This document shows, piece by piece, positions 27,543 through 41,058 of a stretch of DNA of 64,000 bases; the stretch's first letter is position 1; each line of letters starts with the position of its first letter. Source of the DNA: Helicobacteraceae bacterium (lineage in GTDB: Bacteria > Campylobacterota > Campylobacteria > Campylobacterales > Sulfurimonadaceae). The position numbers and the translations under genes were made by a program. The notes beneath the pieces were generated by a model. That model was not told where the DNA came from. It did not search any database and saw only the letters and a list, made by a program, of their open reading frames with translations. The stretch lies in NCBI GenBank assembly GCA_013138865.1, contig WTBY01000074.1:1-64000 (forward strand), in the 5' to 3' direction.

Positions 27543-28033
27543 TATTTCTTTTCCTTTTTACTCTTTTTTTTAGATTTTTTAGATTTTTTTTTCTTAGACT
27601 TTTTCTTTTTAGGTTTTTGTTTCTTCTCGCTTAGATCTACTATCTCTGCCTCTACACTTTGAGTTACCTGTGCATTTTCTGGGAGTAGGTTAATACTTAT
27701 AGTTTGTAAAATATTTTTGAGCTGTTCATCTTTATCTTTATAGATCTTCTCAATTTTTTCTTTATCATCAATTAACATTTTAATATTTCGCTCACGTAAG
27801 TCTCTATTTTCATTTTCTAGTGCTGTTATTTTCTCTTTTAAAGAAGTGTTATCACTCTGTAAATATTCATGAAGTTTACTGTTTGTTGTAGTTACTTTTT
27901 CTTCTTCAAGAACTATATATTTGACACCATTCTCAGTTATGCTCTTAAGTGTACCACGTCTAACTCTGTTGTGTATTGCTTCTTTTGAAACTTTGAAGTG
28001 TTCAGACGCTTCAGCTATTGTCACTCTACTCAT
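27542..28033 (-). CDS. DUF3972-like protein with HTH and lysine-rich tail
   Basis: 163 residues. The N-terminus (TIAEASEHFKVSKEAIHNRVRRGTL) is a MerR/excisionase-type helix-turn-helix; a coiled coil follows (about 50-110). The last 30 residues are almost entirely lysine and serine (an 'Sk' tail). This layout matches DUF3972, found in Campylobacterota. It could bind DNA or RNA through both ends; the function is unknown. It overlaps the HD-GYP gene by 8 bp. Confidence 0.75.
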   Translation of the reverse strand: MSRVTIAEASEHFKVSKEAIHNRVRRGTLKSITENGVKYIVLEEEKVTTTNSKLHEYLQSDNTSLKEKITALENENRDLRERNIKMLIDDKEKIEKIYKDKDEQLKNILQTISINLLPENAQVTQSVEAEIVDLSEKKQKPKKKKSKKKKSKKSKKKSKKEKK

Positions 28034-28997
28034 AATTCTTTCCCTCTTGAGCTTTAAACATTTTTATAAACTCATTTAAAATCTTCAGATCTATATGTTT
28101 TGACATTCTTTTGTGCATAAGAGACAGCGTATCAAAAGTACTCATAGCTTTTTTATATGATCTTTTAGTTGTTAATGCATCAAATATGTCACATATTCCT
28201 ATAATTCTAGCAAAAAGTGATATTTTATCGCCTTTTATACCATCTGGGTAGCCTGTGCCATCTAACTTCTCATGGTGATGGCGTATGCCTAAAAGAGTTT
28301 TTTCATCTGTTATACCTATTTTTTTAGCAAGTATATAGCCTGCTAATGGGTGCTTTTTTATCTCTTCAAACTCTTCGTTGCTAAGCTTACCCTCTTTGTT
28401 AATAATTTCATTAGGAATTCTACTTTTTCCAAGGTCATGAAGTAGTGCAGATTTACCTAAATCTTTTAGATCACTTTGAGATAAGTTAAGGTGAGAACCA
28501 AGTGATAGAGCGTAAATACTTACATTGATAGAGTGAGTGTGAGTATAGTAGTCATGAGCTAATATTTTTAAAAGAGAGCTAATTGCTAAGCGATCTTCTA
28601 AAATGGTAATAACTAAGCTATCAACTATTTTTTCTACCTCTTTGGTATTTTCCAAGCGATCTGGATCACTGAAAATATTACCAACTGCTTCTGTAGCGTT
28701 CTCATACAGTGTTACTGTTTTTTTCTCAAGAGCTGTTTTAGAATTTTTAGTAATCTCTTTCATGTGTTCATTTAAGAACTTTTCATACTCTATTTTATCT
28801 TTTTGTAGAACATAAAGATGCTCAATTTCTCTTAAGTGATGAGCATCATCTCTATTTAGTACTGTACCACTCTGTAAATAGAGTGCCATATCGCTCTTCT
28901 TGTCATCATTAGTTTCATATATGTTAAAAGCGAGTGTTTCACCCTCTTGAAGATACTTAGAATCAACTGATAAATAAGTATTTTTGTTAGATGGCAT
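28026..28997 (-). CDS. HD-GYP domain phosphodiesterase
   Basis: 323 residues. An N-terminal region of about 120 residues precedes an HD-GYP domain: LLHDLGKSRIPNEIINKEGK (the HD pair), HPLAGYILA, RHHEKLDGTGYPDGIKGDKI (HHExxDGxGYP) and RIIGICDIFDALTTKRSYK. All metal-binding and GYP residues are present, so c-di-GMP hydrolysis is expected. No membrane helix or receiver is seen. It counteracts the diguanylate cyclases at 16825 and 32563. It begins one base after the yajQ stop. Confidence 0.92.
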   Translation of the reverse strand: MPSNKNTYLSVDSKYLQEGETLAFNIYETNDDKKSDMALYLQSGTVLNRDDAHHLREIEHLYVLQKDKIEYEKFLNEHMKEITKNSKTALEKKTVTLYENATEAVGNIFSDPDRLENTKEVEKIVDSLVITILEDRLAISSLLKILAHDYYTHTHSINVSIYALSLGSHLNLSQSDLKDLGKSALLHDLGKSRIPNEIINKEGKLSNEEFEEIKKHPLAGYILAKKIGITDEKTLLGIRHHHEKLDGTGYPDGIKGDKISLFARIIGICDIFDALTTKRSYKKAMSTFDTLSLMHKRMSKHIDLKILNEFIKMFKAQEGKNYE

Positions 28998-29495
28998 TTA
29001 TCGCATATTCTCAAAAATGATAGGTGCATCATACTCTTTTGAACGAATCTCTGTCATAACTTTTTGAAGATCGTCTATATTTTTTGCTTTTACTCGAATA
29101 TACTCACCCTCGATCTGAGCATTTACTTTAAGTTTCATACTTTTTATGTCGGCACAGATCTTCTTAGCCTCTTTAGTCTCTATGTAGTCAACTACTTTGT
29201 ATGTAAGTTTACGGTTTCCACCACTACTGTCTTCAACTTTTAACTCTTCTAATGCTTTAGAGTTAAGATCACGTTTGAGAAGTTTACCTATTACAATGTC
29301 TTTTAAAGCGTCAAGTTTGTTATCACTACTTGTAGTTAAAACAAGAAGTTTCTCTTTCTCTTTATAGTTGATTTCACAAACTACACCTTTAAAGTCATAA
29401 CGAGTAGCAATCTCTTTTTCTGAGAGGTTAATAGCATCTTTAAAGTGTTGCATATCGATCTTTGCACTAATATCAAACGAGTGTTCTTTTGCCAT
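28998..29495 (-). CDS. yajQ: YajQ family nucleotide-binding protein
   Basis: 165 residues covering the whole family (UPF0234/DUF520): EHSFDISAKIDMQHFKDAIN at the start, ATRYDFKGV, KMKLKVNAQIEGEYIRV-like central part and VMTEIRSKEYDAPI-like end. Some YajQ relatives bind c-di-GMP and act as effectors. The HD-GYP gene immediately downstream makes that worth considering. Confidence 0.92.
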   Translation of the reverse strand: MAKEHSFDISAKIDMQHFKDAINLSEKEIATRYDFKGVVCEINYKEKEKLLVLTTSSDNKLDALKDIVIGKLLKRDLNSKALEELKVEDSSGGNRKLTYKVVDYIETKEAKKICADIKSMKLKVNAQIEGEYIRVKAKNIDDLQKVMTEIRSKEYDAPIIFENMR

Positions 29496-29537: not shown

Positions 29538-31592
29538 CTATTTTGTTCTAAGGGCAACAACTGTAATGTCATCATTTTGTTCAAAACCATCTTTATAGTC
29601 CTCGAGTGTATATATAAACATTTCTTGTTGATCAGCTAAAGTTTCACTATAGCACTTTTCTAACATTTTTTTAAGTCGCTTTTTACCAAATGGTAACTCT
29701 TTCGTGCCACCATTTTGATCTACATAACCATCAGTTGATAGGTAAATAGTAGTCTCGGTAGAAGTATCTATAATATGATCTGTAAATTCAAAGTTTATAT
29801 CACTGTCTCTATAACCCACGGAGTGGCGATCTCCCTTTATGACTGAAAGTTCACTGTTTTGGTAGTAAAAAATATCACTCTTAGCAGATGCAACTTTTAT
29901 AATATTCTCTTTTTTATTATAGTACATAACCTGTCCGTCAAAACCTACATTTGAGTAAGAGAACTTATCATCTTGTTTTAGAAGCTTTTTTATACTTCTA
30001 TTAAAATAAGATAAAATCCATGCAGGACTAACATCTATACTTGGATCCGTTATAATTTTATTGGTAACTTGTCTCTCTATTGCTTTTATAAGCATAGTTA
30101 AAAATGCACCAGGGACTCCATGCCCTGTACAGTCTATAACTAAAGTAAGACACTCATCCTTATCTCTTAACTCTTCAAAAAGGTATATATCTCCACCAAC
30201 TATATCTTTTGGATGCCAGATAGCAAAGTAATCACTAAAATAATTTCTGAATAATTTATTTGTAGGAATAAGGCTACTCTGAATTAATGCTGCATACGAT
30301 ATAGATTCTTTTGTATGTTTATGAACTTCTGTTAACTCCAACTGTGAGTTTTCCATCTCTGTTATATCTGTAAAAATAGCTGATTTAACTCCTTCAGAAC
30401 CAGGGAGTCTAGCTCCTGTTACTGAAAATATAAAATCTTTTTTACCTCTAGTAATCATAACTTTATGAATTACTCCAAAATTATTTATTACATAATCGAT
30501 CCACTCTCTTCCATCAACTTTTGCTTGTAAATAGTCAGTTGGAGCTTTAGTGTTGAAAGTTACACAGATACATTCACTCTTATACTCTTGTAGAAATTCA
30601 GCAATAGTGTTAACTGCATAAAAATCGAAGAATGTTTCATTTGCGCTAACTATTTTATTGCCATTAGTTGTTATGACTATTTGCTCTTGTGAATCAAGAA
30701 GTGCTTGTGTAAATAGTTGTTGATCTTTTATATCTTTAGTCTTCTCTTTTACTGTTACCTCTAAGCCATCGCTGAGTATTTGGAGGTCTTTCTTCTGTTC
30801 TTTTGTAGTAACTATCTCTTTATCAAGAGAGTTGCTTAGAGTATAAATAAATATCATTAAAACTATAAGCAACACAAGAAATACAATGATCTCTATTTTA
30901 ATACTAGCTATATTTTTTTTACTATGGAATGTTTGAAGCTCTATTAAACGCTCTGTCTTCTTTTCAAAATTAAGTTTTTTATTCTCTTCTAGTAGATTTG
31001 GAAAATTTATCAGATAAGTGTTGAGAACTTTTAGGTGTGCTACAAAAAGTTCTAAAGTCATATTGCTACTATTATTTTTTTCTAGTAGATTGTCTAGATA
31101 CTCTATATCTTTTTTAGAGAAAAATTTATTAGTGTAAGAAGTATGTTGCATAGGTATAATAAAATTATGTACTAATTGCTTATAATCTTCTTTTTCTACT
31201 ATATTTTCCACAAAAATAAAAAGTTTAAAAATATTTTTATGAGAGTTGTTTAAAACAGCGTTAGTTGATTTAAACTCCTCTGCTAGAGCTATTTTTTTTG
31301 AAAATAGAATATCTAAAGCTTTTAGTTGATCAAGTATTTCTCTATTTTTTATTTCTAAGGAAAGTCTGTCTATTGTTGCTTGCATACGCTTAACTAATGT
31401 TTTAATATGATCATTATTCATAGGTTTTAGACTACTCATCATAAAGTTTAAATCTTTATTTGAAAGCATTAGGTTATTTAACTCTTTTGTTGCTTCAAAC
31501 GATCTAGTTATTTTAGTATTTGCATTATATAGGTTATAAAGTAAACCAACAACAAATATAATAAGTAGTGCACCTAATATTTTATTTTTCAT
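29538..31592 (-). CDS. Membrane SpoIIE-type phosphatase with DAHL-like sensor and PAS
   Basis: 684 residues: helix 5-22, a periplasmic all-helical region to about residue 225 with the motif EEFKSTNAVLNNSHKNIF, a second helix (about 230-250), a coiled coil, a PAS-like domain (about 290-410) and a PPM/SpoIIE phosphatase domain (430-684) with KDIVGGDIYLFE and CTGHGVPGAFLTML. The sensor matches the DAHL-type pattern also seen in the kinase at 36165-37751. It overlaps the end of a di-heme peroxidase gene by 11 bp. The output is probably dephosphorylation of an STAS-type or other Ser/Thr-phosphorylated partner, not identified here. Confidence 0.82.
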   Translation of the reverse strand: MKNKILGALLIIFVVGLLYNLYNANTKITRSFEATKELNNLMLSNKDLNFMMSSLKPMNNDHIKTLVKRMQATIDRLSLEIKNREILDQLKALDILFSKKIALAEEFKSTNAVLNNSHKNIFKLFIFVENIVEKEDYKQLVHNFIIPMQHTSYTNKFFSKKDIEYLDNLLEKNNSSNMTLELFVAHLKVLNTYLINFPNLLEENKKLNFEKKTERLIELQTFHSKKNIASIKIEIIVFLVLLIVLMIFIYTLSNSLDKEIVTTKEQKKDLQILSDGLEVTVKEKTKDIKDQQLFTQALLDSQEQIVITTNGNKIVSANETFFDFYAVNTIAEFLQEYKSECICVTFNTKAPTDYLQAKVDGREWIDYVINNFGVIHKVMITRGKKDFIFSVTGARLPGSEGVKSAIFTDITEMENSQLELTEVHKHTKESISYAALIQSSLIPTNKLFRNYFSDYFAIWHPKDIVGGDIYLFEELRDKDECLTLVIDCTGHGVPGAFLTMLIKAIERQVTNKIITDPSIDVSPAWILSYFNRSIKKLLKQDDKFSYSNVGFDGQVMYYNKKENIIKVASAKSDIFYYQNSELSVIKGDRHSVGYRDSDINFEFTDHIIDTSTETTIYLSTDGYVDQNGGTKELPFGKKRLKKMLEKCYSETLADQQEMFIYTLEDYKDGFEQNDDITVVALRTK

Positions 31593-32511
31593 TGATGCTC
31601 ATAATTTTTGGAGTTTCGCCAGTTAATGTTTTTAAAAAACTAACTATTTTCTTTACCTCTTCTTTATCTGGGACCATACCTATTTGATAAAGGGTCATAA
31701 AATTAACAATATCAAATAAGTTTTTTTGTGAACCATCATGTAGGTAGGGGGCTGTTAGCTCTATATTCCTAAGTGTAGGAACCTTAAAAAAGTACTTATC
31801 TTTCTCTTTCTTTGTAACATTATATCGACCTAAAGTATTTTTTTTGTCTACATATGTTTTTAAAATACCAACTTTTTGGTATAGATTTCCACCTATATTT
31901 ATACCGTTATGACAAGCTATACAACCATTTTCTTTAAATAGTTTATAGCCCTCTTTCTCTTCTTTATTTAGTGCTGTTTTATCACCTCTGAGGTATTGGT
32001 CAAATTTTGAGTTTGGGGTAACAAGAGCCTTTTCAAACTCTGCGATCGCATCTGTAATATTCTCTTTTGTTATAGCATCTTTGTAGATACTTTTAAACTC
32101 AACAGAGTACTCAGGGTCTTTTTTTAACTTGCTTAGTACTTCATCCATATTAGAACCCATCTCTATGGGGTTATGAATAGGTTGTGAGGCTTGTGCTTGA
32201 AGATCCTGTGCTCTTCCATCCCAAAATTGAGATAGATTGTATCTTGAGTTAAATACGGTTGGTGAGTTTATAACTCCCTCTTGTGCGTTAATACCAAAAG
32301 AGAACTTTATGTTATCGTCACCACCATCTTCGAGTAAATGACAAGAGGCACAAGAGATTGTATCGTCAGCACTTAGTCTAGGATCGTTAAAAAGTTTTTT
32401 GCCTAAAAGAGCTTTTTTCTGGTCATATTTGGTATCTGTTGGTAGAGGAGATATCAGATCTGCTTGTAGTAAGCTTGTGAAAAGTGCTATAACTAAAACA
32501 TAGAGTCTCAT
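31582..32511 (-). CDS. Periplasmic di-heme cytochrome c peroxidase, paralogue 2
   Basis: 309 residues with a signal peptide (about 1-17). There are two heme-binding motifs, CASCHLLEDGG (about 54) and CIACHNGINIGG (about 197). FWDGRAQDLQAQA and NPIEMG carry the conserved peroxidase-family residues, and TLRNIELTAPYLHDGS lies in the C-terminal heme region. It belongs to the CcpA/MauG family, which reduces H2O2 using periplasmic c-type cytochromes. AAGGA precedes the start. It is a close paralogue of the gene at 37752-38672 and is translationally coupled to the SpoIIE-type phosphatase. Confidence 0.92.
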   Translation of the reverse strand: MRLYVLVIALFTSLLQADLISPLPTDTKYDQKKALLGKKLFNDPRLSADDTISCASCHLLEDGGDDNIKFSFGINAQEGVINSPTVFNSRYNLSQFWDGRAQDLQAQASQPIHNPIEMGSNMDEVLSKLKKDPEYSVEFKSIYKDAITKENITDAIAEFEKALVTPNSKFDQYLRGDKTALNKEEKEGYKLFKENGCIACHNGINIGGNLYQKVGILKTYVDKKNTLGRYNVTKKEKDKYFFKVPTLRNIELTAPYLHDGSQKNLFDIVNFMTLYQIGMVPDKEEVKKIVSFLKTLTGETPKIMSINEK

Positions 32512-32562
32512 TTTTTTCCTTATCTAAATTTATTTTAAAAAATATTATATAATAAAAAAGTG

Positions 32563-33849
32563 TTATTTAGAAATTGAGCAGTGCGCATTTGTAATATCAT
32601 CAAAAAGTACAACTCTGTTTCGTCCATTGTGTTTTGCTATGTATAGGGCATCATCAGCATGTTTAATCATCTCTTCTGCATTTTTGTATTTTCCATAACA
32701 CAGACCGATTGAGATAGTATATTTAATAGTTATATCACCTGATTTAACAACATTTTCTTCTACTTTTTGTCGAAGATTTTCTACTATTTCTTTGCTTTGC
32801 TCTTGTGAGCTACGATCGAGTAGAATACAGAACTCTTCACCACCAAAACGAGCTAAAAGATCAGAAGTGCGTAAGTTATGTTTTAAGATGTTAGCTGCCT
32901 CTTTTAGTGCTAAATCACCTATATCATGTCCATAAGTATCATTGATAGTTTTAAAATGATCTATGTCAATCATCGCTATTGCCACTGCTTTGTCAGATTT
33001 TTGTATGTTGTTAAAGATGTCTGTTGAGGCTTCAAAGAAGTAACGTCGGTTAAATAGTGAAGTTAAAAAATCACGATGAGAGATCTCTTTAGTTTGATGA
33101 AATAGATCTAAAAGTTCTAAGTTATTAGTTACCCTAACTGCTAACATTTCATCGTTATATGGTTTTAAAAGATAGTCATTTGCACCCATCTTAAGACATG
33201 AAACTATGGTATCACTACAGTCCATACTACTAACAATCATAATACTTAAGTTGTCTTTTTTATATTTTTCACGAATTTTAATAGTTAACTCATAACCATT
33301 CACATTAGGCATGTTATAATCTGTTATAACAATAGAAATTTTAGTAGTACTGTCTTGTAGTAACTCTAGAGCCTCCTTAGCATTGTTAGAAGAGACTACA
33401 TTTAGGTTTAGTTTTTTTAGTGCTTTTGAGTATTTCTCAATGGCAATTTTAGAGTCATCAACAACTAATACCGTTGTATCATAATTTTTTAGAACTCTTT
33501 TTAGAACATCAGCAGCGTACTCTAAAGATGAGCGATTTTCTTTAACTATATACTCTACAATATTTAGTTTTTGAAAACTCTCTTTTTTATCTTGAATAGA
33601 GGTCAATACAATAGTAGGTATATTTTTAACTACTGCAGAGTTTACGAGCCTTTTAGCACAAGCATCGTGTAAAAGTAGCTCAACTAAGATGACGCTAATA
33701 GTCTGATTATTTATTATCTCTATAGCATCTTTATGTGTGAGTGCAAAAATAGGCTCAACCGGAGATGTACATCTATTTAACACTTGAACGAAATACTCTA
33801 CAATATCTTCACTATCATCTACAATAAGAACTTTTCTAACTGTTTTCAT
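32563..33849 (-). CDS. Double-receiver diguanylate cyclase
   Basis: 428 residues: REC1 (1-125), REC2 (130-250) and a GGDEF domain (260-420) with RFGGEEF and an upstream RTSD I-site. REC1 keeps the acidic pocket (LIVDDSED) but has Glu57 in VILVELLLHD where the phospho-accepting Asp should be, so it may be locked or act only as a dimerisation module. REC2 has a normal acceptor in VITDYNMPNVNG. The cognate kinase may be the DAHL kinase in the same operon. Expected output is c-di-GMP. Confidence 0.92.
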   Translation of the reverse strand: MKTVRKVLIVDDSEDIVEYFVQVLNRCTSPVEPIFALTHKDAIEIINNQTISVILVELLLHDACAKRLVNSAVVKNIPTIVLTSIQDKKESFQKLNIVEYIVKENRSSLEYAADVLKRVLKNYDTTVLVVDDSKIAIEKYSKALKKLNLNVVSSNNAKEALELLQDSTTKISIVITDYNMPNVNGYELTIKIREKYKKDNLSIMIVSSMDCSDTIVSCLKMGANDYLLKPYNDEMLAVRVTNNLELLDLFHQTKEISHRDFLTSLFNRRYFFEASTDIFNNIQKSDKAVAIAMIDIDHFKTINDTYGHDIGDLALKEAANILKHNLRTSDLLARFGGEEFCILLDRSSQEQSKEIVENLRQKVEENVVKSGDITIKYTISIGLCYGKYKNAEEMIKHADDALYIAKHNGRNRVVLFDDITNAHCSISK

Positions 33850-33861
33850 TAATTACCTATT

Positions 33862-34575
33862 TTAAAAAGTTGGTGCGCCAAAGTCAAGTGCTCCTGCACT
33901 AAAATTTGGATCCATAAAACCTGCTATATTAGATTTTGATCGTAGAGCTGAGATGTCATCTTTTGAAGATATGCCCATAGGACAAACAAGAGTACACTCT
34001 CCACAAAGTGTACAGTCCCAAACACCGTGACTTTGAATATTTTGAATTTTTTTGGTACCTGAGTTCTCTCTAGGATCAAAAATATAACGAAATACTCTTG
34101 TAAGTGAGAAAGGTCCCATGAACTCAGAATTAGTGTCAAAAACAGGACATGCACTATAACAAGATCCACACAAAATACAGTCACTTTGAAGTTCATTAAT
34201 TTTTGCATCTGCTTGCGAAATTTGTAAACTTGTGAAAATTTCAGAGTACGCTTTTGCTTTTATATTTTTTGAGTGAGACTCTTCCATGTTTACAACAAGA
34301 TCACGAATTCTACTCATATTTTTAAGTGCTGTTATTTTGTCGCCATCTTTAACTTTATAAGAACATGCTAATTTTTCAACTTCATTAACACGCATTGAAC
34401 AACTACCACAAATACTACTTGCACAACCACTACTAAAACTAAGTGTTGGGTCTATTTTAGTTTTTATAAATGCAAGTGCTTGAAGAAGTGTAGGATTTTC
34501 AAGTTGTACGTCATACTCTATAAAAGCTTCTCTCTCGCCACCCTCTTTTGTGTATCTTAAAACTTTAATTATCAT
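33862..34575 (-). CDS. Fumarate reductase/succinate dehydrogenase-like iron-sulfur subunit
   Basis: 237 residues. C51, C56, C59 and C71 form the [2Fe-2S] ferredoxin motif. C133, C136, C139 and C143 form a [4Fe-4S] motif. The third motif is C188-x2-C191-x2-C194-x3-C198; classical subunits lack the second cysteine there and bind a [3Fe-4S] cluster, so a second [4Fe-4S] is predicted. No membrane-anchor subunit gene follows; the next gene is the response regulator 12 bp on. It overlaps the flavoprotein gene by 11 bp. Its electron donor is unknown. Confidence 0.88.
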   Translation of the reverse strand: MIIKVLRYTKEGGEREAFIEYDVQLENPTLLQALAFIKTKIDPTLSFSSGCASSICGSCSMRVNEVEKLACSYKVKDGDKITALKNMSRIRDLVVNMEESHSKNIKAKAYSEIFTSLQISQADAKINELQSDCILCGSCYSACPVFDTNSEFMGPFSLTRVFRYIFDPRENSGTKKIQNIQSHGVWDCTLCGECTLVCPMGISSKDDISALRSKSNIAGFMDPNFSAGALDFGAPTF

Positions 34576-36172
34576 CTGTTTTCCCTACAAAGTCTGCACA
34601 TAAAATTCCCTCTTCACGCCATACTTTTAGATCCGTTGCATACATCTCGTCTTTAGACTCTGGTATATCGTCTCTAAAGTGAGCACCACGGCTCTCATGT
34701 CTACTGATCGCAGAGACCAAAATAACCTCTGCTAACTCAACCATATTTCCGAACTCTATAAACTCAACTAGGTTAGTGTTATAGTGCATAGACTTATCGA
34801 CTGGACCCATAAAAGGGATCTCCATTTGTATCTGTCTGATCGCAGCTAGAACAGCTTTAAGTCCTGCATCATTTCTAACAAGACCTACATTATTATAAAA
34901 AATATTTGATATAAACTCTCTTTTTTCATAAAAATCTATTTGATTTGTGAAGTGTTTAATACCCTCAATAAAGTTACGATCACTCTCAAATTGAGTTGTT
35001 GTTTTATGTTCTGGTGACACTGATGAAGAGTGAGCTGCACTCTCTCCTGCAATAGAGCCAAATACCATAAGTTCTAAGAGTGAGTTTCCTCCGAGTCTGT
35101 TAGCACCATGTACTTTATGGTTAGCACACTCTCCAACAGCAAAAAGGTTTTTAACATTTGTTTCACACTCTAAGTTAACCTCTATACCACCCATACTATA
35201 GTGAGCAGCTGGTTTTATAGGCAGTAGATCTACGATCGGATCAACTCCTTCATAAAGCTTTGCTAGTTTTCTCTCTTGTGGCAGGTTCTCATCTATAAAC
35301 TCTTCACCTAAATGACGAATATCTAAAAATACGTCTGAGCCACTCTCAATCTCGTTATGAATTGCTCGAGCAACTTCATCGCGAGGTGCTAACTCGTTTG
35401 TGAAACGATCGCCTTTTGAGTTTACAAGGTAACCACCTGCCCCTCTAGCACTCTCTGAAATTAAAACAGAAGAGTTTTTAAGAGCTGTTGGGTGTAGTTG
35501 TATAAACTCCATGTTAGAGATCGAGGCACCTGCACGAAGTGCAACAGCAACTCCATCACCTGTAGTTCCTGCTGAGTTAGTTGAGTGCTTTTGATAAATT
35601 TTAGAGTAACCGCCAGTTGCTAAAATGATCGCATCTGCTTCTATATGTTTAGTCACTCCTGTTTGCATATCTAAAAAGTTACCACCAAATACTTTTTTAT
35701 TTTGAACACTTAAGTTTATAAGGTAGTGCTCATTTATAAACTTTATGCCTAATTTATTGCAGTGATCGTAGAGTGTATGAAGAATTTTAAGTCCACTAAA
35801 GTCTTGTGCATAACAAGCACGAGCTTCTGAAGCACCGCCAAGTTTTCTTTGAGTAATTTCTCCACTTTTATCTCTACTAAAAGGAACACCTATTGAGTCT
35901 AAAAATTCGATCTCTGTTGAAGCATTTTCACAAAGTATAGCTATTGCCTCTTGTGAAGCGACACCATGAGCTGAACGAAGAGTATCTGCAATATGGTGTT
36001 CAACTGAATCATTTTCTCCGCGTGCTGCATTAATGCCACCTTGTGCCATGCATGTTTGTGACCTTGTAGGGTAACTTTTTGAGATAACTGTAACTTCTGC
36101 GCCATTCTTATGAGCTGAAATAGCAGATCTTAAACCTGCCCCTCCTGCTCCTATTATTAAAACTTTATTCAT
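34565..36172 (-). CDS. Fumarate reductase/succinate dehydrogenase-like flavoprotein
   Basis: 535 residues with the FAD dinucleotide motif VLIIGAGGAGLRSA, the substrate/active-site regions (FIQLHPTAL, ELAPRDEVARA, HYSMGGIEV, GANRLGGNSLLE) and the C-terminal helical domain ending in the RGAHFRDD motif. The residue that normally binds FAD covalently is His in RSHT; here it is Gln39 (PTRSQTCMAQGG), so FAD should be non-covalent. In E. coli FrdA, replacing this His abolishes succinate oxidation but spares much fumarate reduction, so a reductase role is inferred. No Tat or Sec signal, so it should be cytoplasmic. L-aspartate oxidase is unlikely given the paired Fe-S subunit. Confidence 0.88.
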   Translation of the reverse strand: MNKVLIIGAGGAGLRSAISAHKNGAEVTVISKSYPTRSQTCMAQGGINAARGENDSVEHHIADTLRSAHGVASQEAIAILCENASTEIEFLDSIGVPFSRDKSGEITQRKLGGASEARACYAQDFSGLKILHTLYDHCNKLGIKFINEHYLINLSVQNKKVFGGNFLDMQTGVTKHIEADAIILATGGYSKIYQKHSTNSAGTTGDGVAVALRAGASISNMEFIQLHPTALKNSSVLISESARGAGGYLVNSKGDRFTNELAPRDEVARAIHNEIESGSDVFLDIRHLGEEFIDENLPQERKLAKLYEGVDPIVDLLPIKPAAHYSMGGIEVNLECETNVKNLFAVGECANHKVHGANRLGGNSLLELMVFGSIAGESAAHSSSVSPEHKTTTQFESDRNFIEGIKHFTNQIDFYEKREFISNIFYNNVGLVRNDAGLKAVLAAIRQIQMEIPFMGPVDKSMHYNTNLVEFIEFGNMVELAEVILVSAISRHESRGAHFRDDIPESKDEMYATDLKVWREEGILCADFVGKTDDN

Positions 36173-37751
36173 TTTCGCCTGTATTAATTAATTTTTGAGG
36201 AATAGTAATTTTAAAGGTACTCCCCCTATCTAGTTCTGAGCTAAGTTCTAGTTTAGCATCCATTAACAAGAGAAGATCTTTTGTTATGCTAAGTCCTAAA
36301 CCTGTACCACCATGTTTTTTTGTTGTAGTGCTATCAGCTTGAGTGAAAGCATCAAATATTTTCTCTTGAGTCTCTTTTGACATTCCTATACCATTGTCCT
36401 TAATAATTATAAATAGTGTAGAGTTTTCGTAATATATATCTACTTTTACTTCACCATCTTTTTGAGTGAATTTTATAGCGTTTGAAACAAGATTGTTAAT
36501 TACTTGAGTTATGCGCATCCAGTCACCATATAGAGTTATATCTTGAAGCTTATCTCTGTTTAGTGTAACTTTTATTTTTGCTTGTTGGGAGAGTGCATCA
36601 AAACGAGAAATAACAGTGAGAGTCTCTTCTTTAAGTTCATATTCATGTGGTTCTATCTTAAACTTACCACTTTGAATTTTTGCAATATCTAAAATATCAT
36701 TTATTAAGTGAAGAAGGTGATCTGAACTATTTTTTATATTTAGTACATATTTTTGTAAAATTTTATCATCACCTATCTTATGTGCCATAATTTGAGCAAA
36801 ACCACCAATAGCATTAAGTGGTGTTCTTAGTTCATGACTCATATTTGATAAAAATTCATCTTTCGCATTATGTGCAAATATGGCATCCTTTTTACTTTTG
36901 TACTCCTTGTAGTAAGAGACTAGCGCAGTTATTAAAAATAGTAAAGCACTCGCAAATGAAAAACCAATAAGCCACTTTTCATCAGTAGTGTACAGCTCTA
37001 TTTTTTTCTCTATTTGAACTTGTATCTCATTCTCAATTTTAGCATTATTGCACGCTTTCATTTTTATAGAAAGCTCAGCTAATTTTTTATAGTAAGTATG
37101 TGCCATCTGCATATTTGCTGAGAGCATTATTTTTAGAAGCTCTTTGTCTTCTATAAGCTGATAAGCTTCAGGTGTAAAAAGATGTTTTAGTGATCTTAGC
37201 TTGGTAAGGAATAGACCTACTTCATTTTTGGTGGCTATATTTGAAAAGTTTAAATTGCTCATAGAATTTGAGTAATAGCCTATTAAAAGTTCTTTTATAT
37301 CTTCCATTAAAGCAGGAGTAATAAAGTCAACTTTTTGATCTTGATTGAGTCTTTGTGTGTATAGTTTATTTAAAAAAAGTAAGGAGTTTTTTACAACTGA
37401 GTGATAAGATTTATAATCATCAATAAGTGAAGACCTAAGACTCATATTATTTTGAAGAGAGTTTAACTCATTTTTTACTTCACTTAAGCCAATGCGTCTA
37501 AAATGCTCTATTAGATCTTTACCCATACTGTCTAATTCAGTAGTTGTTAGCGTAAGTGCATCATAGTTATTTCTTGAAGATAGTTCAGATAATAGTATCA
37601 GTTGATCCTTTTCTAAAAGTTGATAGGTATAGAATTGACGCTCTGCTGAGATTAAATCCTCTTTTTTATGTTGTATATTAAAATATTTATATGTACCAAC
37701 GATACCTAAAAAAATAAAAAGAAGAACAAATATTCTAAGATCAAATTTCAT
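36165..37751 (-). CDS. Sensor histidine kinase with DAHL-like periplasmic domain
   Basis: 528 residues: helix 6-22, a periplasmic helical sensor to about residue 255 with DDYKSYHSVVKNSLLFLN, matching the KS-x-NAVL-NSL pattern of DAHL domains, a second helix (about 258-278), HisKA with FLSNMSHELRTPLNAIGG (about 305-322) and an ATPase domain with N, G1 and G2 boxes (NNLVSNAIKF, DNGIGMSKE, GTGLGLS). It directly follows the peroxidase gene with no gap and overlaps the flavoprotein gene by 8 bp. The partner is probably the double-receiver cyclase in the same operon. Confidence 0.9.
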   Translation of the reverse strand: MKFDLRIFVLLFIFLGIVGTYKYFNIQHKKEDLISAERQFYTYQLLEKDQLILLSELSSRNNYDALTLTTTELDSMGKDLIEHFRRIGLSEVKNELNSLQNNMSLRSSLIDDYKSYHSVVKNSLLFLNKLYTQRLNQDQKVDFITPALMEDIKELLIGYYSNSMSNLNFSNIATKNEVGLFLTKLRSLKHLFTPEAYQLIEDKELLKIMLSANMQMAHTYYKKLAELSIKMKACNNAKIENEIQVQIEKKIELYTTDEKWLIGFSFASALLFLITALVSYYKEYKSKKDAIFAHNAKDEFLSNMSHELRTPLNAIGGFAQIMAHKIGDDKILQKYVLNIKNSSDHLLHLINDILDIAKIQSGKFKIEPHEYELKEETLTVISRFDALSQQAKIKVTLNRDKLQDITLYGDWMRITQVINNLVSNAIKFTQKDGEVKVDIYYENSTLFIIIKDNGIGMSKETQEKIFDAFTQADSTTTKKHGGTGLGLSITKDLLLLMDAKLELSSELDRGSTFKITIPQKLINTGENE

Positions 37752-38672
37752 CTATTTATCTTTTAAAATTTCAGGAGTTTCACCTGTAAGAGTATTTAAA
37801 AAAAGTTCTATTTTTTTAACGTTTGTGTCACTTATTCGAATTCCTAGTTGATGTTCTGCCATATCTTTGATTGCTGTATAGAGTGTAGCTATTTGTCCAT
37901 CATGAAAATAAGGAGCTGTTAGTTCAATATTTCTTAGTGTTGGCACTTTAAAATAGAACAGATCCTTAGACTCTTTAGTAATGTTATAGCGTCCTTTATT
38001 GCCATGCTTTGATTTGTATGTAAGCATAATACCAACTTTTTGGTACATATTGCCACCGACGTTAACGCCATTGTGACAGCTAATACAGCCATACTCTTTA
38101 AAGAGTCTATAACCCTCTTTCGCTTCAGCAGAGATAGCATCGTTATTGCCTCTTAGGTACTCATCAAATGGTGAGTTAGGTGTGACTAGAGCACTCTCAA
38201 ACTCTGCTATAGCATCAGCTATATTTTTTGCGGTAATACCATCTTTGTAAACTTTGTTAAACTCTTTTTTATAATTAGGATCTTTTTTGAGTGTTTTAAC
38301 AACATTTTGCATGGTATTAGCCATCTCAATAGGATTTTCTATAGGAACTATTGCCTGAGCTTTAAGATCTTTTTCTCTGCCGTCCCAAAACTGAACAAAG
38401 TTGTAGCGAGAATTTAGAACAGTAGGTGAGTTAATAGTTCCTACTTTTCCGTCAACTCCTTTAGAAAAATCTTTGTTATCTGCTCCACCACCTGGTAAAA
38501 AATGACAAGAGGCACAAGCTACAGTGGAATCTATTGAAAGAATAGGGTCAAAAAATAGTTTCTTTCCTAGCGCTGCTCTGCTCTTATCATACTTAAACTT
38601 TTTAGGTAATGGAGTTACATCTTGTGCAAGTAGAGTAGTGATAAATAGTGCGATTATAGTAAGATAGTTCAT
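37752..38672 (-). CDS. Periplasmic di-heme cytochrome c peroxidase, paralogue 1
   Basis: 306 residues with a signal peptide (LTIIALFITTLLAQ), heme motifs CASCHFLPGGG and CISCHNGVNVGG, FWDGREKDLKAQA and NPIEMA, and TLRNIELTAPYFHDG: the same layout as the gene at 31582-32511. It is the first gene of a seven-gene run. On the minus strand a TATTAT at 38680-38685 is 7 bp from the ATG and no Shine-Dalgarno sequence is visible, so the operon may start leaderless. It abuts the DAHL kinase gene exactly. Confidence 0.92.
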   Translation of the reverse strand: MNYLTIIALFITTLLAQDVTPLPKKFKYDKSRAALGKKLFFDPILSIDSTVACASCHFLPGGGADNKDFSKGVDGKVGTINSPTVLNSRYNFVQFWDGREKDLKAQAIVPIENPIEMANTMQNVVKTLKKDPNYKKEFNKVYKDGITAKNIADAIAEFESALVTPNSPFDEYLRGNNDAISAEAKEGYRLFKEYGCISCHNGVNVGGNMYQKVGIMLTYKSKHGNKGRYNITKESKDLFYFKVPTLRNIELTAPYFHDGQIATLYTAIKDMAEHQLGIRISDTNVKKIELFLNTLTGETPEILKDK

Positions 38673-38746: not shown

Positions 38747-40507
38747 TTAATTGTTAAAAAACTCTAAGCTAAAACATACACCAGTAGTTTCTCCTTGGGG
38801 AGAAGTTATATTTTTAACATTTAAGTGAGCATTATGGTGATCTTCTATAATTATTTTTGACATATAAAGCCCTAATCCTGTTCCATTTTTTTCACTTTTT
38901 GTAGAGAAGTAAGGATCAAAAATATTCTCCATTATATTATTTCTAATACCACCACCATTGTCACTAATTTCTATACTACAACCATTTCCAATATCTTTTA
39001 TTTCTATAGTGATCTCAGAATTTTTTAATTTTTTCTCATTTATATTATCTTGTGCATTTTTAATAATATTTAGCACAACTTGAACAACTTCGTTCTCTAT
39101 AATATCTATTTCAGTGCTACAGTTATACTCTTGAATAAGTTTAATATTATCTACTTTTAAAGAGCTTTGTATAATATGTAGTGCTTTCTCAATTGTAGAA
39201 CTTAGTAATGTTTTAGTTATCTGTTTATCTATTTTATAAAAATTTCTAAAATCGTCAATAGTAGAAGTCAAACTTTGAGTCAGTGTACCAATTTGATTTA
39301 AAGAGTTAGTAAAATACTCTTTGTGTTCTTCTTGTTCATCTTTTTTATCTAAATTGTAGGTATCAAGTTCTAACTGCATATTTAAATCAATAGATATAGC
39401 GGAAATACCAGCTAGTGGTTGTCTCCACTGATGTGCGATCATACTGATCATTTCACCCATTTGTGCTAGTTTAGAGTGCTGAAAAAGTTTTTTATTGTTC
39501 TCAATATTAATAGCTTCTAGTGCTTTGATTTTTTTGGTATACATGTTAAATATATAGTACATTAGCATACTCATAAAAAGTAATAACGCTACATTTGTTA
39601 AGTTTGTATAAAATAAAAACTCTTCATTACTTTTAAAAAGAGCTGTTATATTTTTAGAAACAATAATTTTTGCGATAGGTTCTTTATCTATTGATTTTAG
39701 ATCTAAGTTATTAACTACTAAAAAATATTTATCTTCTATATGTAAAATCTGATGCTCTTTAGTTACATCAAGTAGTGGATTTATTTTTTTAAAAATTGTT
39801 TCACTAAGTATAAGGGAATAGTCATCTACTTGTTCATAGTCAGTTTTTGTATTTAAATATTTTAACTTATCGGACTTAACAAGTATCTCAACATTTATGT
39901 GTCCCGCTTCTTCTGCAAGCTCGCTGGCAAAATATGATGGCTTTATTCCATACTCTAAAATACCAAGAAGTGTGTTATTCTCACCTACAAAAGGTACACT
40001 AATTCTATAGGAAACACCATTTTTACCAACTTCAAAAGCATTTTTATTCATTTTTGTAGCTGTTGTCTTTTCTATTAATGGTCTAATACCTACTATACTA
40101 TCATTGAATTGTTCTGGTCTATGCATTCTTAGTATAGTTGTGTTGTTGGAGTCAAAAAAATGCATAATTTCTAAATATGGATCAGATTTTTTTAAAGAAG
40201 TATAATTTAGCTGCATATGCTTTAAGAGCTTTTCTCTATCTCTATTTTGTAAATATTTTTTTAATTTTGAGTTATTTAAATAAGGAATACTTATAAATTG
40301 ATAGCTATCTTGCAGATGTTTGAGCTCATCTTCAAAAATTAGTGTTATATCAGACTTTAAATTATTGATCTCTTTTTTTAACATCATATCTGTATGTTGG
40401 TTGTCAAAGTAGAGTCTCAATATTAAGTTTAAAATAAGAATTAAAATAGCTAGAGATATGTATCGATTTTTAAGTTTATCTAATTTAACTGGCATTAAGA
40501 ACCTCAC
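38747..40507 (-). CDS. Sensor histidine kinase with Cache-like domain
   Basis: 586 residues: helix 15-32, a periplasmic Cache-like sensor to about residue 298 with MHFFDSNNTTILRMHRPEQF, a second helix (about 300-322), a coiled coil, then a phospho-acceptor region of the type MISMIAHQWRQPLAGISAIS common in Campylobacterota. The ATPase domain has VLNIIKNAQDN, ISDNGGGI and GTGLGLYMSK. GAGGTGAGG upstream is a good ribosome-binding site. It ends 74 bp before the peroxidase operon and may regulate or extend it. No receiver partner is adjacent. Confidence 0.9.
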   Translation of the reverse strand: MRFLMPVKLDKLKNRYISLAILILILNLILRLYFDNQHTDMMLKKEINNLKSDITLIFEDELKHLQDSYQFISIPYLNNSKLKKYLQNRDREKLLKHMQLNYTSLKKSDPYLEIMHFFDSNNTTILRMHRPEQFNDSIVGIRPLIEKTTATKMNKNAFEVGKNGVSYRISVPFVGENNTLLGILEYGIKPSYFASELAEEAGHINVEILVKSDKLKYLNTKTDYEQVDDYSLILSETIFKKINPLLDVTKEHQILHIEDKYFLVVNNLDLKSIDKEPIAKIIVSKNITALFKSNEEFLFYTNLTNVALLLFMSMLMYYIFNMYTKKIKALEAINIENNKKLFQHSKLAQMGEMISMIAHQWRQPLAGISAISIDLNMQLELDTYNLDKKDEQEEHKEYFTNSLNQIGTLTQSLTSTIDDFRNFYKIDKQITKTLLSSTIEKALHIIQSSLKVDNIKLIQEYNCSTEIDIIENEVVQVVLNIIKNAQDNINEKKLKNSEITIEIKDIGNGCSIEISDNGGGIRNNIMENIFDPYFSTKSEKNGTGLGLYMSKIIIEDHHNAHLNVKNITSPQGETTGVCFSLEFFNN

Positions 40508-40962: not shown

Positions 40963-41058
40963 TGATTGACTCCGTCGGTGGGCTTCGCCATCACCTTTGG
41001 TTCCGAACCATGATTGACTCCGTCGGTGGGCTTCGCCATCACCTTTGGTTCCGAACCT
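40963..41058. repeat. Two tandem 48-bp repeats abutting the yqaA start
   Basis: Copies at 40963-41010 and 41011-41058 differ only in the last base. They are more GC-rich than their surroundings. On the minus strand each copy contains GGTGATGGCGAAGCC, which mimics a start region, and CGGAGTCAATCA, which supplies the ribosome-binding site. A possible 29-codon upstream ORF (41039 down to 40950) repeats the peptide MAKPTDGVN and overlaps the real start in another frame. Confidence 0.9.

Follow-up and report, generated by a model that had tools for sequence, protein, structure and literature searches.

In Campylobacter jejuni, the gene docA (Cj0020c) encodes a homologue of the di-haem cytochrome c peroxidases (CCPs) and lies directly upstream of docB (Cj0019c), which encodes Tlp10, and loss of docA lowers chick colonisation (PMC3156733, PMC5656828). 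Neither of the C. jejuni CCPs adds to peroxide resistance (PMC3156733, PMC5656828), and DocA is no close relative of the ordinary CCP (PMC5656828). Mutants of tlp10 show defects in colonisation and in chemotaxis to aspartate and fumarate, and their complementation made use of a promoter from upstream of ccpA (PMC4444964). The accessible literature does not describe DocA and DocB as parts of a single receptor. There are receptors that depend on a second protein: TorS works with a periplasmic partner, and in both TorT-TorS and LuxP-LuxQ a soluble periplasmic partner is encoded beside a membrane receptor that has an all-helical domain. Here, we describe a related arrangement in a Helicobacteraceae bacterium, in a stretch of 64,000 nucleotides (contig WTBY01000074.1, assembly GCA_013138865.1) that is referred to as the window. 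Within a run of seven minus-strand genes, one CCP gene (CCP1) directly precedes the gene for a sensor histidine kinase with a DAHL domain, and another (CCP2) directly precedes the gene for a DAHL protein with a SpoIIE phosphatase domain. As at docA-docB, a CCP gene stands immediately before the gene for a DAHL transmembrane receptor, whereas the output is chemotaxis there and a kinase and a SpoIIE phosphatase here.

A preliminary description of this DNA had linked the peroxidases to the two membrane sensors, a link that proved to reach far beyond one operon. The DAHL domain (PF19443; curated Pfam cut-off 38 bits) was searched for regardless of CCP, and the gene directly 5′ of each match was then inspected. 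Among 26 genomes of the same family, a CCP gene lies directly 5′ on the same strand of all 24 DAHL matches, four of which are in the source genome. Across 249 genomes of Campylobacterota the same holds for 79 of 80 above-cut-off DAHL genes, most of which overlap the CCP gene by 4-17 bp, and the single exception has its CCP directly 3′. Campylobacter-like genomes that were examined (L154) carry a CCP gene followed by a DAHL-chemoreceptor gene, which is the docA-docB arrangement. The pairing is also found outside the phylum: CCP is directly upstream of 55 of the 59 testable above-cut-off DAHL genes in 369 genomes of Gammaproteobacteria (the class of an Azoarcus metagenome-assembled genome), and of 3/3 DAHL matches in Desulfobacterota. 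When genomes first found through their CCP are left out, these counts become 51/55 and 2/2, respectively. With roughly 3.5 CCP matches per genome, adjacency by chance is expected for about 0.2% of genes. Both DAHL matches in the window fall below the cut-off, which most of the other paired proteins exceed; sub-cut-off matches that have no CCP beside them, of which there are nine in Campylobacterota, are probably false.

Sequence distances among the CCPs correlate with those among their DAHL partners (Mantel r 0.78, and 0.54 among divergent pairs; the highest of 500 shuffles gave 0.07), and on the CCP tree the paired and unpaired states need only two changes. As far as such distances go, co-divergence shows inheritance as a unit and is not proof of contact. 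In the open-access literature searched, "DAHL domain" or PF19443 is named in a single paper, and there just in a list, and an earlier mention of the CCP neighbour elsewhere is possible; the association is therefore likely, though not certain, to be new, and it is apparently undescribed.

What follows the DAHL domain is far less constant than what precedes its gene. Sixty non-redundant campylobacterial DAHL proteins carry EAL (41), GGDEF (40), chemoreceptor (MCP, 8), HATPase (8) and SpoIIE (1, the window's) domains, and 32 DAHL proteins from other phyla carry GGDEF, EAL, kinase and one nucleotide cyclase domain. Because outputs vary while the CCP partner remains constant, CCP is tied to the input side. 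DAHL is predicted to be an all-helical periplasmic domain between two transmembrane helices: AlphaFold2 models of the domain in the kinase (36972-37694) and in the SpoIIE protein are all-helical, with pLDDT of 85 and 93, respectively, and the DAHL models contain one helix of 48 residues. The nearest fold to the DAHL model is the helical bimodular domain of McpS with malate or succinate bound (TM score 0.61, E 2e-3), and a weaker match is the complex of TorS and TorT. No relatives of DAHL were found in a sequence search of the PDB. The locus resembles partner-dependent periplasmic receptors in that the gene of the partner is adjacent and is conserved whatever the output; it differs from TorT-TorS and LuxP-LuxQ in that the partner is a di-haem CCP homologue and not a protein of the sugar-binding type.

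We next consider whether the paired CCPs look like enzymes or like sensors. Residues are numbered as in Pseudomonas aeruginosa CCP, and counts of haems and of the His71 loop refer to CCPs filtered for two CxxCH motifs; among 171 complete paired CCP open reading frames (ORFs), five deviated from this number, mostly because they were split or incomplete. Both CCP1 and CCP2 contain an above-cut-off CCP_MauG domain and two CxxCH motifs, and the closest solved structures to CCP1 are 3o5c and 1iqc. Both window CCPs retain the inter-haem Trp94, Gln104, Glu114 and the axial Met275, and lack the distal His71/Trp loop of the reductively activated CCPs. Paired CCPs thus share PF03150, two CxxCH motifs and most catalytic residues with housekeeping di-haem CCPs such as Cj0358 and that of P. 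aeruginosa, but they form a separate clade in which the loop is found in 0/157, as against 20/21 unpaired CCPs of Campylobacterota. Loss of the loop was rejected as an exclusive mark of sensors, as the loop is absent from unpaired CCPs of Bacteroidales and Myxococcales too, and its loss is a clade trait. A second difference is that W94, Q104, E114 or M275 has been lost in 26/157 paired CCPs, from Campylobacterota and from other phyla, and in none of 89 unpaired CCPs (Fisher 5e-6, a value that ignores kinship between the sequences). Haems that are kept while catalysis decays are the pattern expected when sensing replaces turnover. At four loci (L125, L128, L185 and L194) the CCP is strongly degenerate, having lost both the inter-haem Trp and the axial Met, and still lies directly before a DAHL gene; these proteins may be pseudo-peroxidase sensors. 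At two Campylobacter-like loci, L137 (2177-3080) and L160 (3821-4740), the CCP is split into ORFs of 93 and 152-155 amino acids and the DAHL-chemoreceptor gene is open.

Our preferred explanation, to which we assign a probability of about 0.6 on the strength of these comparisons, is that CCP and DAHL together make up a two-protein receptor, in which CCP is the subunit that senses in the periplasm. The window would then hold two such modules, CCP1 with the kinase and CCP2 with the SpoIIE/PP2C phosphatase. The CCP haems would encounter peroxide, a different haem ligand or the redox state of periplasmic cytochrome c, the conformation or redox state of CCP would be read through docking on the periplasmic DAHL domain, and the signal would then cross the membrane to whichever output is attached to DAHL. 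Several observations weigh against this explanation. The majority of paired CCPs (131/157, CCP1 and CCP2 among them) keep their peroxidase residues, and adjacency and co-divergence are also expected from simple linkage. Four gammaproteobacterial and one campylobacterial above-cut-off DAHL genes do not have a CCP directly upstream, so that DAHL may function without it. The DAHL model gave no Foldseek match below E 0.001. Finally, direct detection of small molecules, including malate, has been reported for the DAHL domain of Tlp10 (PMC9796306).

This last report is central to an alternative in which DAHL alone senses small molecules such as C4-dicarboxylates, CCP is a co-expressed periplasmic peroxidase with a protective or regulatory role, and the genes for a fumarate-reductase-like flavoprotein (FrdA) and iron-sulphur subunit (FrdB) that follow the kinase gene are connected to it through a shared C4-dicarboxylate. 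The loss of chemotaxis to aspartate and fumarate in Tlp10 mutants (PMC4444964), the dicarboxylates bound in the nearest fold match, and the recurrence of CCP-kinase-FrdAB blocks in at least four genera all speak for it. Sensing by DAHL alone leaves unexplained why almost all DAHL genes, irrespective of their output, have a CCP as companion rather than some other gene, why catalytic residues are lost in CCPs that are nevertheless retained, and why docA has no peroxide phenotype. Small-ligand and protein-partner modes of DAHL are both possible, and only the protein-partner mode accounts for the CCP; we regard the small-molecule alternative as fairly unlikely. A much less probable idea is that CCP is an enzyme like MauG or MbnH that uses peroxide to modify DAHL covalently, with the modification serving as the signal. 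Proteins of the MauG and MbnH families often have their protein substrate encoded nearby, and the best NCBIfam matches of the window CCPs are to MbnH and MauG. These matches reach only 158-179 bits against cut-offs of 444 and 363, the axial Met typical of CCP is still present, and some paired CCPs have lost catalytic residues. A modified residue was also sought in DAHL and the candidates were rejected: no Trp, Cys or Met is near fixation, and a Tyr conserved at 68% does not track the integrity of CCP.

The preliminary description had instead drawn all seven genes together into one redox system, with fumarate reductase and peroxidases as parts of one circuit. Its proposal that the sensors read peroxidase activity is one among several candidate mechanisms. 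The tight spacing of the genes is in keeping with this, as is the presence of CCP, hybrid kinase, FrdA and FrdB in that order in at least four genera (the window, G098, G033 and G017); in the tree, the CCPs next to FrdA in the window, G098 and G033 fall into a single supported clade, and a weak DAHL domain is seen in the kinases of G098 and G033. A regulatory link of this sub-block to FrdAB is possible, and to that extent the proposal may stand. For the seven genes as a whole it does not: a CCP lies beside FrdAB in 2/40 family neighbourhoods and is absent in the other 38, DAHL modules are mostly located elsewhere, and the compartments differ. With FrdAB in the cytoplasm and the CCPs in the periplasm, no direct electron exchange is expected. 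A neighbourhood search in other Campylobacterota had been put forward as a check; among the neighbourhoods compared, the full order was found in this window only. We therefore consider a single seven-gene circuit improbable, if slightly less so than covalent modification of DAHL.

FrdAB itself is a conserved, family-wide backbone, mostly without CCP or DAHL neighbours. An FrdA match was detected in 200/200 sampled genomes of the family, and most of the genomes listed carry an ortholog that is 55-69% identical. In 40 family neighbourhoods a recurring frame is seen, with a VTT/DedA gene upstream of FrdA-FrdB, YajQ (34/40) and a helix-turn-helix (HTH) protein downstream, and variable signalling genes inserted. 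A kinase gene occupies the slot between VTT/DedA and FrdA, where the window has its dCache kinase, in 9/40 relatives, a hint that sensors have been recruited to the side of FrdAB more than once. The window FrdA keeps the substrate and catalytic motifs (HPT, ESARGAGG, APRD, HYSMGG and GANRLG) and in this resembles the quinol:fumarate reductases FrdABC and MfrABE, to whose FrdA and FrdB families the pair belongs. It differs from these in that no membrane anchor gene lies alongside, in that the FAD-linking His is replaced by Gln, as in 35/35 orthologs with a readable motif, and in that FrdB has an extra, twelfth Cys at the 3Fe-4S site. The genome encodes two more FrdA paralogs (C7 and C32), and these retain the FAD-linking His. 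Mutants of Escherichia coli provide the basis for reading both substitutions, and by analogy the Gln suggests that FAD is held non-covalently and that fumarate reduction is favoured, and the extra Cys suggests a second 4Fe-4S cluster. The window FrdAB is thus a probable non-covalent-FAD, anchor-less fumarate reductase. As ATP citrate lyase is encoded in the same genome, a role in the reductive tricarboxylic acid cycle fits. The best explanation is that FrdAB is the cell's own cytoplasmic housekeeping fumarate reductase, at most co-regulated with the CCP-DAHL genes.

The outputs of the two putative modules can be partly anticipated from the genes nearby. The DAHL kinase has no receiver domain and the REC-REC-GGDEF gene directly follows FrdB, and they are therefore likely partners, in which case the kinase would probably feed a cyclic di-GMP output. 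In the regulator, the acceptor Asp of REC1 reads Glu (VELLLHD), REC2 is intact, and GGEEF and RxxD motifs are present. The DAHL-SpoIIE protein is similar to SiaA of the SiaABCD system, a membrane sensor with a C-terminal SpoIIE/PP2C domain, and its PP2C motifs are present; the differences are a DAHL input, a CCP partner, the lack of siaBC alongside, and a score of 204 bits, over the C-terminal part only, against the SiaA cut-off of 700 (NCBIfam NF038263). Six genes of the SiaC family (PF09345) are present in the source genome (C17, C12, C76, C3, C52 and C77), suggesting several parallel partner switches of the SiaA/B type. The PP2C motifs and the SiaC homologues make a SiaA-like output plausible, and the phosphatase would probably act on a SiaC-like phosphoprotein encoded elsewhere. 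A tandem duplication of CCP1 was not supported as the origin of CCP2, as CCP1 clusters in the tree with other FrdA-adjacent CCPs and CCP2 does not; judged from sequence, CCP2-SpoIIE is a separate module and not a copy of CCP1-kinase.

The ORF list and Pfam domains (CCP_MauG twice, HisKA/HATPase with DAHL, FAD_binding_2/Succ_DH_flav_C, Fer2_3/Fer4, two Response_reg with GGDEF, and SpoIIE with DAHL) confirm the seven minus-strand genes at 29538-38672, each at the position and in the order first described and with gaps of no more than 51 bp (Table 1). From CCP1 onward the intervals are 0, -8, -11, +12, +51 and -11 bp, which amounts to three true overlaps and one abutting pair where four overlaps had been counted. 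The co-directional run extends upstream through the dCache kinase (74 bp away), VTT/DedA, RNase J and KsgA, and downstream through YajQ (42 bp away), HD-GYP, an HTH protein and QueF, with close spacing throughout apart from a gap of 132 bp behind RNase J. Since the run continues on both sides, the seven genes are a selection from a longer run and their boundaries are not natural ones. A scan for promoters and terminators gave counts not usefully above those of shuffled sequence. A perfect 47-nt direct repeat, in two copies with 48-nt spacing, is located at 40963-41057 between the RNase J and VTT/DedA genes.

Table 1. Genes of the CCP-DAHL and FrdAB region and its immediate neighbours in the window
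Feature	Position	Strand	Basis
CCP1, 306 aa, periplasmic homologue of di-haem CCPs with a signal peptide and two CxxCH motifs, putative partner of DAHL kinase	37752..38672	-	PF03150 E=5e-59
DAHL sensor histidine kinase, 528 aa, transmembrane 1-19 and 261-279	36165..37751	-	HisKA, HATPase_c, DAHL 35.0 bits (sub-cut-off)
FrdA-like flavoprotein, 535 aa, without signal peptide	34565..36172	-	Family profiles, orthologs in 40/40 family neighbourhoods
FrdB-like iron-sulphur subunit, 12 Cys	33862..34575	-	Family profiles
REC-REC-GGDEF response regulator	32563..33849	-	Pfam, motifs
CCP2, second periplasmic di-haem CCP homologue, putative partner of DAHL phosphatase	31582..32511	-	Pfam, residues
DAHL-SpoIIE (PP2C) phosphatase, 684 aa; DAHL about 30903-31523	29538..31592	-	SpoIIE E=1.7e-17, DAHL 32.8 bits (sub-cut-off)
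dCache sensor kinase, directly upstream of CCP1	38747..40507	-	dCache_3, HATPase_c
YajQ (DUF520), conserved 3′ neighbour of FrdAB	28998..29495	-	Pfam; 34/40 neighbourhoods
HD-GYP phosphodiesterase adjoining YajQ	28026..28997	-	HD_5, HHEKLDGTGYP in sequence

Taken more broadly, we see an even chance that di-haem CCP homologues were taken over, probably in a single event, to serve as the dedicated haem-based sensor subunit in a class of bipartite transmembrane CCP-DAHL receptors that spans at least three phyla and is connected to kinases, cyclic di-GMP enzymes, chemoreceptors, cyclases and phosphatases. If so, many genes that are annotated as antioxidant peroxidases would be receptor subunits, and DAHL receptors would gain a candidate natural signal in peroxide, in some other ligand of haem or in the redox state of the periplasm. 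The role of DocA in colonisation without peroxide resistance would be explained, testably, through DocB/Tlp10. Such receptors would also offer bacteria a general route for sensing the oxidant or redox state beyond the inner membrane and for relaying it to every class of output.

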